Below, one piece after another: positions 37,233-41,674 of a stretch of 53,953 nt of DNA. The stretch spans positions 1 through 53,953 of the forward strand of contig NZ_JAGSOI010000011.1 in NCBI RefSeq assembly GCF_023684405.1. Reading direction: 5' to 3'. Positions within the stretch are counted from its first letter, which is position 1. Every line of letters starts with the position of its first letter. A program made the position numbers and the translations under genes. The DNA comes from Methanococcoides seepicolus. Its GTDB lineage: Archaea; Halobacteriota; Methanosarcinia; Methanosarcinales; Methanosarcinaceae. The notes below the pieces were generated by a model. The model searched no databases. It was not told the origin of the DNA and saw nothing but the letters and a program-made list of their open reading frames with translations.

Positions 37233-38156
37233 ATGAAAATACTTCTTTCTGAATACGCTGTCAGCACAGGGATGAGCGGCACCTACCTCCTGGAAGGAAA
37301 AGCAATGCTATCCACCCTGACATCCAGCTTTTCGCGTCTCGGGCACGAAGTGATATACACAACCTCCGATACGACCATCTAGCATGGGAAACCTGTCAGA
37401 TCATCCGAAGAAGATATCGAAGCAACGATAAGGAAATGTGCCAAAAAATGTGATGCGGGACTCGTTATAGCCCCCGAAGAGATCCTTCCGGGACTTACAG
37501 CAATAATTGAAGATAATACACTGAACCTTGGTTGTTCCCCGGATGCAGTATCCATCTGCTCGGATAAACTTGAGTGCACCAGAATGCTCGAAAATGCAGG
37601 GCTTGCAGTCCCCAGAACATATGCACCCGGACAAAGGATGCCACTGGAAGGATGCTGGGTAACAAAACCCAGATATGGTTGTGCATCTGAAGATACTTTT
37701 GTTTGCCACCGACCAGATATTAAAAGCAGCCATATTGCGACCGAATATATCAAAGGCGAACATCTAAGTGTTAGCCTGATATGCGGAAAAGAACAGCTCC
37801 CCCTCACAGTGAACGCACAGAGGATGGAGATAGACCCCACAAAGGATGCTTCCAAGATCGAATATTGCGGTTGTACAACCCCATACAGAACAGATAGAGA
37901 ACAAGAGCTCTATGATGTAGCAAAGAAAGCTACAAGAGCATTAGGCTGCAATGGATACATAGGCGTGGACATCATACTTGGGGACAGACCGTACATCGTA
38001 GATGTCAATCCAAGACCTACAACATCCCTTGTGGGCATTACAAAGATAATGGACAAAGAGATAGCAGAACTTCTCCTCAAGAACGGGATGAGAGAAACAC
38101 TGCCAGAAATAAAGATAACCGGAGAATATTCATTCACCAAAGAGGAACTGAGATGA
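37233..38156 (+). CDS. mfnD: tyramine--L-glutamate ligase MfnD, with in-frame TAG (codon 50)
   Basis: 308 codons from the ATG at 37233 to TGA at 38154-38156, interrupted only by TAG at 37380-37382 (codon 50), between SDTTI and HGKPVRSS. Both sides read as one ATP-grasp protein: N-terminal MKILLSEYAVSTGMSGTYLL, pre-ATP region with LVIAPEEILPGLTAIIEDNT, SDKLECTRMLENAGL, GCWVTKPRYGCASEDT, and metal-binding VDVNPRPTTSLVGI. MfnD joins tyramine and glutamate in methanofuran synthesis; the next two genes are mfnF and mfnE. The first start codon after TAG is ATG 37584, which would remove the whole pre-ATP domain. In pyrrolysine-using methanogens TAG can be read as pyrrolysine, so this gene is probably read through. 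Sequencing error or mutation cannot be excluded. Confidence 0.82.
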
Positions 38157-39130
38157 GATATATAGGAATAGACATCGGCGGAGCAAACACCAAAGTTGCA
38201 TCAAGTGATGGCGAGATTACAGAATTGCTCTACATTCCGCTCTGGAAAGACACGACCCTTCCATCCGCACTTAAGGAACTGGCAAATAGGCTTCGACCCG
38301 ACGGATTGGCAGTTGTTATGACAGGAGAGCTGGCAGACTGTTTTGTCGACAAGGATGAAGGTATCAAGTTCATAATGGATGCAGTGAACAACGCCTTCGA
38401 CTGTGAAGTGAAATACGTCAACAATACAGGGAATTTCCAGGAAAGGACACAAAGCAGCAGAGAACTTGCCGCTGCAAACTGGGCTGCATCTGCCCGCCTG
38501 ATAGGAGAAGAAGTTGGAGATTGCATTTTTGTGGACGTAGGCAGCACCACCAGTGATGTGATACCCATCAAGAACGGAAAACATATTGCAGGACACACTG
38601 ATTTTTCAAGATTGCTTAGAGATGAACTGTTCTATGCAGGTACACTGCGCACGAACCTTGCGGCATTACTTGAAACCGTGGACCTTGATGCTGGTACATG
38701 CAGAGTATCATCTGAGCTCTTTGCAAATACCGCAGATGCATATATGCTGCTTGGAGATATCGATAAAGAACTCTATACATGCGAAACCGCAGACGGTGCA
38801 GGCAAAAACATGATCGACTGCATGAGAAGACTTGCGCGCGTGGTCTGTGCAGACCTTACCGAAATATCAGAAGATGATATATACAGGCTAGCAAAGAACG
38901 TTAAGGAAAGACAGATAGAACTGCTATGTAATTCAATATCCACAGTTGCCGAAAAGAATGACCTTGATATGATAGTATCGGCAGGTTTGGGAGAGTTCAT
39001 GGTAGAAGAGGCTGCAAAAAGGCTCGGTTATGACTGTTTCTCAACTGCGGACAAGTGGGGCAAGGATATATCAAAGGTATTTCCCGCATATGCTGCGGCC
39101 AGATCGATGGATAAGGAAAAGAACGAATGA
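38153..39130 (+). CDS. mfnF: methanofuran biosynthesis protein MfnF (hydantoinase/oxoprolinase-like)
   Basis: 325 residues of the ASKHA fold. N-terminal phosphate loop GIDIGGANTKVA (4-15), DVGSTTSDVIPI (about 125-136) as phosphate 2, and a C-terminal VSAGLGEFMVEEAAKRLG adenosine loop. MfnF couples the aminomethylfuran moiety to gamma-glutamyltyramine. Its ATG overlaps the mfnD stop (ATGA), so it depends on ribosomes arriving from mfnD; this supports translation through the mfnD TAG. Confidence 0.9.
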   Translation: MRYIGIDIGGANTKVASSDGEITELLYIPLWKDTTLPSALKELANRLRPDGLAVVMTGELADCFVDKDEGIKFIMDAVNNAFDCEVKYVNNTGNFQERTQSSRELAAANWAASARLIGEEVGDCIFVDVGSTTSDVIPIKNGKHIAGHTDFSRLLRDELFYAGTLRTNLAALLETVDLDAGTCRVSSELFANTADAYMLLGDIDKELYTCETADGAGKNMIDCMRRLARVVCADLTEISEDDIYRLAKNVKERQIELLCNSISTVAEKNDLDMIVSAGLGEFMVEEAAKRLGYDCFSTADKWGKDISKVFPAYAAARSMDKEKNE

Positions 39131-39145
39131 TAAGGGAAATTGCTC

Positions 39146-39778
39146 ATGAAGGTCGTCCTTAAACTTGGAGGAAGTCTGATAGACAGATCAGCAGACCTCA
39201 TAGAGGCCATATCTGACCACTTTGCCGGAACCGAAGGGAATACGCAAGTGATCATCGTACCCGGCGGTGGGATCTTTGCCGATAATATACGCAGGATATC
39301 CGAAGAGTATTCACTCACGGAAAAAGCATCCCACTGGATGGCCATAGCAGCAATGGAACAATATGCACATCTCCTCGAAGATATGACAGGGATACCAACC
39401 ATAGAGGATACCAGCAATGTCAACGAAAAGGTATCAATTCTGCTCCCATACAGACTTTTGAAGGATACGGATGAACTACCCCATTCATGGGATGTTACCT
39501 CTGACACCATTGCAGCATGGGTGGCACAAAGAATGAATGCAAGATTTGTCAAAGCCACCGATGTTGATGGTATTTTCAATGATGGGAAAATGATAGAGGA
39601 GATGACCCAAAGAGAACTTGAGAGGATGGGAGAAACATGCGCCGACCGGATGTTGTCCACAATGCTGATAAAGCACGGTATGGACTGCATGATCGTGAAT
39701 GGAGATCATCCGGAGAGAGTGGTTGCAGCCATTGAAGGTAAAAAAGTTATAGGAACTTACATCAAGGGGAATACTTAA
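39146..39778 (+). CDS. mfnE: MfnE, 5-(aminomethyl)-3-furanmethanol phosphate kinase
   Basis: 210 residues, amino acid kinase fold. KLGGSLIDRSADL near the N-terminus (about 6-18), IIVPGGGIFADNIRR (about 36-50), TSDTIAAWVAQRMNA (about 118-132) and KATDVDGIF (about 136-144) are the kinase motifs. It makes the diphosphate substrate used by MfnF. I chose ATG 39146 rather than TTG 39140; AGGGAAA lies upstream. Last gene of the mfnDFE operon. Confidence 0.88.
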   Translation: MKVVLKLGGSLIDRSADLIEAISDHFAGTEGNTQVIIVPGGGIFADNIRRISEEYSLTEKASHWMAIAAMEQYAHLLEDMTGIPTIEDTSNVNEKVSILLPYRLLKDTDELPHSWDVTSDTIAAWVAQRMNARFVKATDVDGIFNDGKMIEEMTQRELERMGETCADRMLSTMLIKHGMDCMIVNGDHPERVVAAIEGKKVIGTYIKGNT

Positions 39779-40495: not shown

Positions 40496-41674
40496 TTATT
40501 CATCCCCCATATGGATCACTTTTGCGTTAGAGACCGCTTCATTAACAAGAGCTTCAATGTCCACTTTTTCTTCTTCTTTGACAATGGAACCAAATGTTGC
40601 TTTCACCTCTGGGTTAACAGGAACGGCACCACAGCCTGAAGTTGGCATTATTGAAATATCATAGGAACCAATGCGTTTGGCAATATCGATTATTTCGGTT
40701 TTGTCAAGCCCTATGAGAGGGTGATAAAGCGGAATTCCCAGACCATATATCTCAGCATGCATATTGGCAGCGGTCTGTGAAGCCACCTGACCGATGGATG
40801 AGCCTGTGATGATACCATCAGCATTCTCTTTTTTCATAATTTCATATGCCATACGATACATTGTGCGTTTACAGAGAAGACAGGTATTCTTCACAATACA
40901 CTTCTTCATAAACTCGTCAAGGTTCTTCCCATGAGGGACCTCATACATTTTCATATGATCCGCAGGAGACCATTTTTGAAGCAGTTCAACAGCTTTGATC
41001 GCACGTTCAAGTGCTCTCTCATCAGAAAAAGGTATGTTGTTCGCATACACCGGGATAACCTTCACACCACGCTTCATCATAAGCCATGCTGCAACCGGAG
41101 AATCGATGCCCCCTGACATCAAAGCGACCATCGTACCCTGACTACCAAGCGGAAGACCCCCCACACCTTTGACAATGTCTGTAAAAACATAGGCTTTGTT
41201 CTGCCTCATTTCAACGGAGATCTCACGATCAGGATTTGAAAGGTCCACCTTAGGAGTTTTTCCAATAGATTCAAGCCGGGTCCAGACCGCATCCCCGCAT
41301 AATCTGCCAATGTCCGTGGAAGAAGGGCCCTCTTTTCCCACACGACGTGCACGAATTCCGAAGGACTCGCCTTCATTTATAATATCGGTACCAATATCGG
41401 CACAAAGCTTTGCAGCTTCATCAACATCAGCCTCTATAATTTTAGCAGCCGATGTGGAAACAACACCAAAGACATCCGCGGCTGCTATTGCAGCTTCCGG
41501 GTCATCAGAAGTAATGAAGATACGACCCCATTCACGATGAACTCTGGAAAAAGATACTTTTTTCTGCCTCAACATAGCCTCAAGGTTCCTTACAAGGATC
41601 CTTTCATAGAGATTCCTGACACCCGGACTCTTGAGTGCTAGTTCTCCATACCTTACAATAACCACATCGAACAT
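40496..41674 (-). CDS. thiI: tRNA 4-thiouridine sulfurtransferase ThiI
   Basis: 392 residues. THUMP domain (about 55-165) followed by an adenylation domain with the PP-loop SGGIDSPVAAWLMM (187-200). It adenylates U8 of tRNA for sulfur transfer and may also serve thiazole synthesis. There is no C-terminal rhodanese domain, the usual archaeal form, so the sulfur source differs from E. coli. Conserved cysteines lie in CIVKNTCLLCKR (about 262-273) and SGCGAVPV. Confidence 0.93.
   Translation of the reverse strand: MFDVVIVRYGELALKSPGVRNLYERILVRNLEAMLRQKKVSFSRVHREWGRIFITSDDPEAAIAAADVFGVVSTSAAKIIEADVDEAAKLCADIGTDIINEGESFGIRARRVGKEGPSSTDIGRLCGDAVWTRLESIGKTPKVDLSNPDREISVEMRQNKAYVFTDIVKGVGGLPLGSQGTMVALMSGGIDSPVAAWLMMKRGVKVIPVYANNIPFSDERALERAIKAVELLQKWSPADHMKMYEVPHGKNLDEFMKKCIVKNTCLLCKRTMYRMAYEIMKKENADGIITGSSIGQVASQTAANMHAEIYGLGIPLYHPLIGLDKTEIIDIAKRIGSYDISIMPTSGCGAVPVNPEVKATFGSIVKEEEKVDIEALVNEAVSNAKVIHMGDE

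Follow-up and report, generated by a model that had tools for sequence, protein, structure and literature searches.

The mfnD-like gene of Methanococcoides seepicolus contains an in-frame TAG at codon 50, and we consider it likely that this codon recently changed from GAG, that it is decoded by the pyrrolysine tRNA (tRNA-Pyl), and that full-length MfnD with pyrrolysine (Pyl) at residue 50 is made, the change being close to neutral. The gene lies in a stretch of 53,953 nucleotides (NZ_JAGSOI010000011.1, referred to below as the window), which is contig C13 of a genome of 2,803,900 bases in 158 contigs (GCF_023684405.1), with an estimated completeness of 99.97% and contamination of 4.36%. Among named records, the closest that turned up belong to Methanococcoides, at 96-97% protein identity. 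The mfnD frame comprises 307 codons and ends in a TGA at 38154-38156, with the TAG as its sole internal stop. Since the remaining two forward frames over the same interval hold 23 and 11 stops, so long a frame interrupted just once cannot be put down to chance. Frame and translation bore out what a preliminary description had read from this region, namely that mfnD is open on both sides of the TAG, that the first ATG, GTG or TTG in frame past it is a distant ATG whose use would remove the pre-ATP domain, and that mfnF and mfnE follow intact, the former sharing an ATGA (38153-38156) with the end of mfnD (Table 1).

Table 1. Coordinates of the mfnD region in the window
Feature	Coordinates	Strand	Remark
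mfnD-like gene (tyramine--L-glutamate ligase type, ATP-grasp)	37233..38156	+	307 residues with TAG read through
In-frame TAG, codon 50, candidate pyrrolysine codon	37380..37382	+	GAG/GAA in 10 other genus genomes
Shorter 190-aa ORF from first in-frame start past TAG	37584..38156	+	without residues 1-117
mfnF-like gene, intact, ATGA overlap with mfnD	38153..39130	+	TIGR03123 394.3 bits, cut-off 244.1
mfnE-like gene, intact	39149..39778	+	MfnE NF040622 best match; mechanical ORF start is TTG 39140

In profile searches the product, translated through the TAG, matched PF02655 (ATP-grasp_3) with 135.8 bits over residues 109-265 and PF18301 (preATP-grasp_3) with 34.5 bits over residues 56-106, both above the Pfam cut-offs. 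Its best NCBIfam match was MfnD_Meth (NF040722) at 140.5 bits, below the equivalog cut-off of 400, and we therefore label the gene MfnD-like and its product a predicted ligase. Five intact relatives scored 123.5-154.1 bits on the same profile, likewise below the cut-off; low scores are therefore typical of the group and not peculiar to this copy. The gene order is that expected for MfnD, with the mfnF-like and mfnE-like genes directly downstream, although both products fall under their own Mfn cut-offs (MfnF NF040623, 293.9 bits against 520; MfnE NF040622, 158.5 bits against 300). The preliminary description had named a second intact mfnD elsewhere as an outcome that would count against its reading. 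A search of the genome's 158 contigs found no second full-length MfnD, the sole other match being a 381-aa ATP-grasp protein with 35% identity over about 100 residues, which we rejected as a candidate.

We compared codon 50 across relatives by aligning MfnD sequences at full length. Among 11 Methanococcoides genomes the stop occurs in this genome only, and in 10 of 10 others the codon is GAG or GAA (Glu). Because all ten carry one of these two codons, the TAG is a private one-base change, judged from the alignment to be G to T (GAG to TAG), and it falls at a highly variable position: across 19 loci from other genera residue 50 was Ser and Gln (four each), Ala (three), Glu (two), and Ile, Asp, Thr, Lys, Gly and Leu (one each). 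A wider family search returned an mfnD match at E <= 0.001 in 103 of 111 genomes, some of them weak only; among the matches listed, no other full-length mfnD had a stop, and a TAG stood in one weak match, in genome G088, that aligned elsewhere and not to the mfnD stretch. The preliminary description had also placed codon 50 in a surface loop. This placement is unproven, since an AlphaFold model built from five close sequences had a mean pLDDT of 35.8 and was unusable, though the position is very variable.

The absence of pyl genes, which the same description had named as a refutation, was not what we found. Contig C1 carries a tRNA-Pyl with anticodon CTA together with ORFs for PylS, PylB, PylC and PylD, all four above their NCBIfam cut-offs, so that the complete machinery resides in the same genome as the mfnD TAG; the Pfam model PylC-like_N had no match in the genome, though PylC is present by NCBIfam. 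The release factor aRF1 gave one match above cut-off and three more below. With regard to the use of TAG as a stop, the earlier remark that none of roughly 60 genes ends in TAG was right in substance: the window holds 53 coding-like ORFs (at least 60 aa, best-scoring of six frames), of which 29 end in TGA, 24 in TAA and none in TAG. In a sample of 641,023 of the genome's 2,803,900 bases (23%), TAG was the terminator of 5 of the 240 ORFs that reach 300 aa, and of 12 of the 529 coding-like ORFs that reach 100 aa, in keeping with the earlier claim that TAG is rarely a stop here.

Taken together, the simplest course of events would begin with a single recent G-to-T substitution that turned a glutamate codon into TAG. 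Because the cell has tRNA-Pyl (CTA), PylRS and three pyrrolysine-making enzymes, we infer that ribosomes would read this TAG as pyrrolysine at least part of the time, in competition with aRF1. The full-length MfnD so made would bear Pyl at residue 50, where it would take no part in catalysis, and no role for the pyrrolysine need be invoked; since the site tolerates many residues, the change would be near-neutral and the protein would be expected to work. The cell may require only little of a ligase that makes a coenzyme, and partial read-through may therefore suffice. As to how efficient such decoding might be, PMC2933860 describes a reporter in M. acetivorans that was given an amber codon, with read-through of about 20-30%, and according to PMC9499178 and PMC2933860 amber reading does not strictly require an mRNA element. 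The 101 bases past the mfnD TAG folded less stably than the mean of their shuffles (z +1.41); we therefore claim no PYLIS-like structure there, and this counts against the proposed decoding. In its favor are the single stop in a gene with no frameshift, the profile score of 140.5 bits within the range of intact relatives, and a dN/dS to genus member G002 of 0.174, near that of three other genus members (0.155, 0.164 and 0.192).

Among the alternatives, the one that survives best is that mfnD is a recent pseudogene or decaying allele, in which the TAG terminates translation, function is being lost, and methanofuran is made otherwise or is not needed. The pattern of substitution speaks for it and against read-through. 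Each of the four private mfnD substitutions (A30T, E50TAG, E72K and G287R) is non-synonymous, with no synonymous change, as against 7 non-synonymous and 19 synonymous private changes in seven neighboring genes together (Fisher's test, post hoc, p 0.012, or 0.033 without the TAG), and dN/dS to the two nearest relatives was raised (0.43 and 0.50, compared with 0.26 between those two). Selection on mfnD may be mildly relaxed, although dN/dS to G002 is ordinary. Yet decay would be expected to leave several disabling changes, and we found one TAG and no frameshift, in a gene that scores like its intact relatives, is followed by intact mfnF and mfnE, and has no other full-length MfnD in the genome to replace it. 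Two of the other private residues are also found in relatives: Lys at site 72 occurs in 9 of 19 loci from other genera, and Thr at site 30 (12 Ala and 7 Val in those loci) occurs in one genus relative, L017; site 287, by contrast, is Gly in 14, Glu in 4 and Asn in 1 of the 19, with Arg seen in none. On balance we regard a decaying mfnD as unlikely.

We also considered that the TAG might be a consensus or assembly error and the true codon GAG, as would be conceivable for a stop private to one draft genome in 158 contigs. An ortholog control of internal stops bears on this. With 1.2 Mb of G002 as reference, orthologs were accepted at no less than 75% identity and 60% coverage, and a coding filter was adopted since the unfiltered control was swamped by shadow ORFs; the filtered control covered 147 and 150 genes first and then 267 each way (267 of 957 coding-like G002 ORFs with an ortholog in this genome's sample, and 267 of 529 in the reverse direction). 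Stops in the first 30 or the last 15 residues were left out (10 in the first direction, namely 8 TAA and 2 TGA; 9 in the reverse, namely 4 TGA, 3 TAA and 2 TAG). In this genome the 267 orthologs held two internal TAG (mfnD and a gene for a 187-aa protein), two TGA and two TAA. Both TGA are read as gene boundaries because an in-frame ATG lies four or five codons beyond, and both TAA sit in a single leader that aligns badly. The reverse comparison gave two TAG (thiI and a poorly aligned N-terminus), two TGA in one decayed gene, and two TAA (a transposase and an N-terminal stretch). The raw counts of the three stops are equal, and the TAG excess rests on inspection and judgement alone, which weighs against the decoding we favor. 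Two points speak, though weakly, against an error: a second private TAG lies in another conserved gene (that for the 187-aa protein), at a codon that is Lys in 10 of 10 relatives, and no TAA or TGA case was judged a clean mid-gene substitution. The argument is weak because there are two TAG cases only, set against a TAG share of 38-43% expected for random stop gains from codon make-up. The control is too small either to prove sense reading or to exclude error or decay; we judge a sequence error quite improbable.

Finally, translation might restart at the internal ATG and the 190-aa product, which would hold nearly all of the ATP-grasp_3 match, might do the work; this we hold to be most improbable, given that such a product would lack the pre-ATP domain, that codons 51-117 still look constrained (one synonymous and one non-synonymous change to genome G007; dN/dS 0.139 to G002), and that no ribosome site was evident by eye in the 40 bases before the ATG.

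With decoding as pyrrolysine thus kept as the favored reading, the closest known case is Thg1 (tRNA-His guanylyltransferase) of Methanosarcina acetivorans, a non-methyltransferase gene in which a single species has an in-frame amber codon where its relatives encode an ordinary residue. In mfnD, too, an in-frame TAG stands between homologous flanks at a position where relatives have a sense codon, in a genome with complete pyl machinery in which, on the 23% sample, TAG is rare as a stop. The two differ in gene and genus, and in that Thg1 is experimentally supported whereas MfnD is known here from sequence alone. The Pyl of Thg1 is described as a product of neutral evolution (Heinemann et al., 2009, as cited in PMC8211752, PMC2933860 and PMC3639795) and as unneeded for activity (PMC2933860), and neutral gain of in-frame amber codons has been proposed for other genes too (PMC3639795). 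The methylamine methyltransferases MtmB, MtbB and MttB have their TAG read by the same machinery, and mttB of this genome carries its TAG. MfnD does not belong with them: it is an ATP-grasp protein whose TAG is private and at a variable position, unlike their Pyl, which is catalytic and conserved (PMC8211752). The preliminary description had suggested that a cofactor ligase would widen the set of Pyl proteins; the set is not newly widened, as Thg1 and transposases appear already in PMC8211752 and PMC2933860. Among the open-licence papers listed for methanofuran, MfnD or ATP-grasp together with pyrrolysine, no title or opening abstract line reports a pyrrolysine MfnD.

The mfnD TAG probably belongs to a type of change for which these organisms already offer examples, recent, confined to one letter and without harm, and by itself it shows no new function for pyrrolysine. 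Its interest lies in being a clean recent case in a cofactor gene, probably an indispensable one, that would need amber decoding to yield its full-length product, and the efficiency of read-through would therefore bear on metabolic function. The preliminary description had gone further in proposing that methanofuran cannot be made unless the TAG is read through, which may overstate the case. Archaea that read TAG generally as pyrrolysine have reportedly been described by Kivenson et al. in Science in 2025, and the present genome resembles them in that TAG is rare as a stop and lies within unrelated conserved genes. A broader proposal would be that Methanococcoides uses TAG proteome-wide as what amounts to a pyrrolysine codon, with some non-methyltransferase uses kept by selection (the fumarase/aspartase-type gene described below and possibly MfnD, whose read-through would then tie the supply of methanofuran to the availability of pyrrolysine and hence of methylamine); we think this rather unlikely.

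Of the sample's coding-like ORFs with 60 aa or more, 17 end in TAG; mfnD is not among them because its part before the TAG is shorter than 60 aa. In seven, a TAA or TGA follows 1-11 codons beyond the TAG (two of these on contigs below 5 kb). Six look interrupted, namely mttB, a fumarase/aspartase-type lyase, a histidine kinase, an integrase, hypF and the 187-aa protein, and in the first four one Pfam domain each runs across the TAG. The TAG lies within the ATPase domain of the histidine kinase (L037 1998) and within the N-terminal domain of the integrase (L048 1576), both on short contigs (4.9 and 3.2 kb, respectively) that may be contaminants. In hypF (L050 15887, minus strand) the in-frame TAG is at codon 104 and the NCBIfam match spans it; eight genus homologs at about 55-56% identity have Pro (seven) or Thr (one) there, and a second hypF copy in G007 also has a TAG. 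The 187-aa conserved protein (L032 15726, minus strand), with no Pfam or NCBIfam match, has full-length orthologs and a private TAG where 10 of 10 genus relatives have Lys. The remaining four ORFs (pylB, L047, L058 and L061) were placed in neither group; in L061 (6545, minus strand) the TAG falls past residue 729 of a D5-type primase and the frame stays open for 155 codons more. In thiI, which is open in the window (40496-41674), G002 has an internal TAG at Tyr position 310 (L115 2771).

The lyase gene is the strongest single piece of evidence for TAG as a sense codon. Its TAG at codon 249 (L062 290, minus strand; L080; genus loci L083-L088) was compared in the nine genus genomes with the full stretch (G002 has a fragment and G001 no match), and was present in seven, the other two having CAG and TGG, each one base from TAG. 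The six other TAG-bearing copies are 75-82% identical to that of this genome, and no other stop occurred past codon 30 in 30 family loci read. A TAG kept despite such divergence, with no other stops, would be hard to explain unless it is read, and we put it forward as a candidate for a long-standing use of pyrrolysine in a gene that encodes no methyltransferase. In 21 loci outside the genus the site was Leu (nine), Lys (seven), Glu (two), Ala (two) or Gly (one). Together with mfnD, this gene suggests that real Methanococcoides genes are cut short or broken in two by standard gene calling.

As a separate observation, TAG is the stop codon of pylB in all 11 genus genomes and in 23 of 30 family loci read, out of 95 genomes with a match (L005 8379-8381; L102-L112, L152-L170). 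We set this aside as a novelty, since PMC2933860 gives the same ending for M. mazei, M. acetivorans and M. burtonii. In Methanococcoides the pylC start (ATG or GTG) lies one base past the pylB TAG, and because TAG ends only about 2% of ORFs, one can conceive that Pyl supply feeds back on the translation of pylB/pylC.
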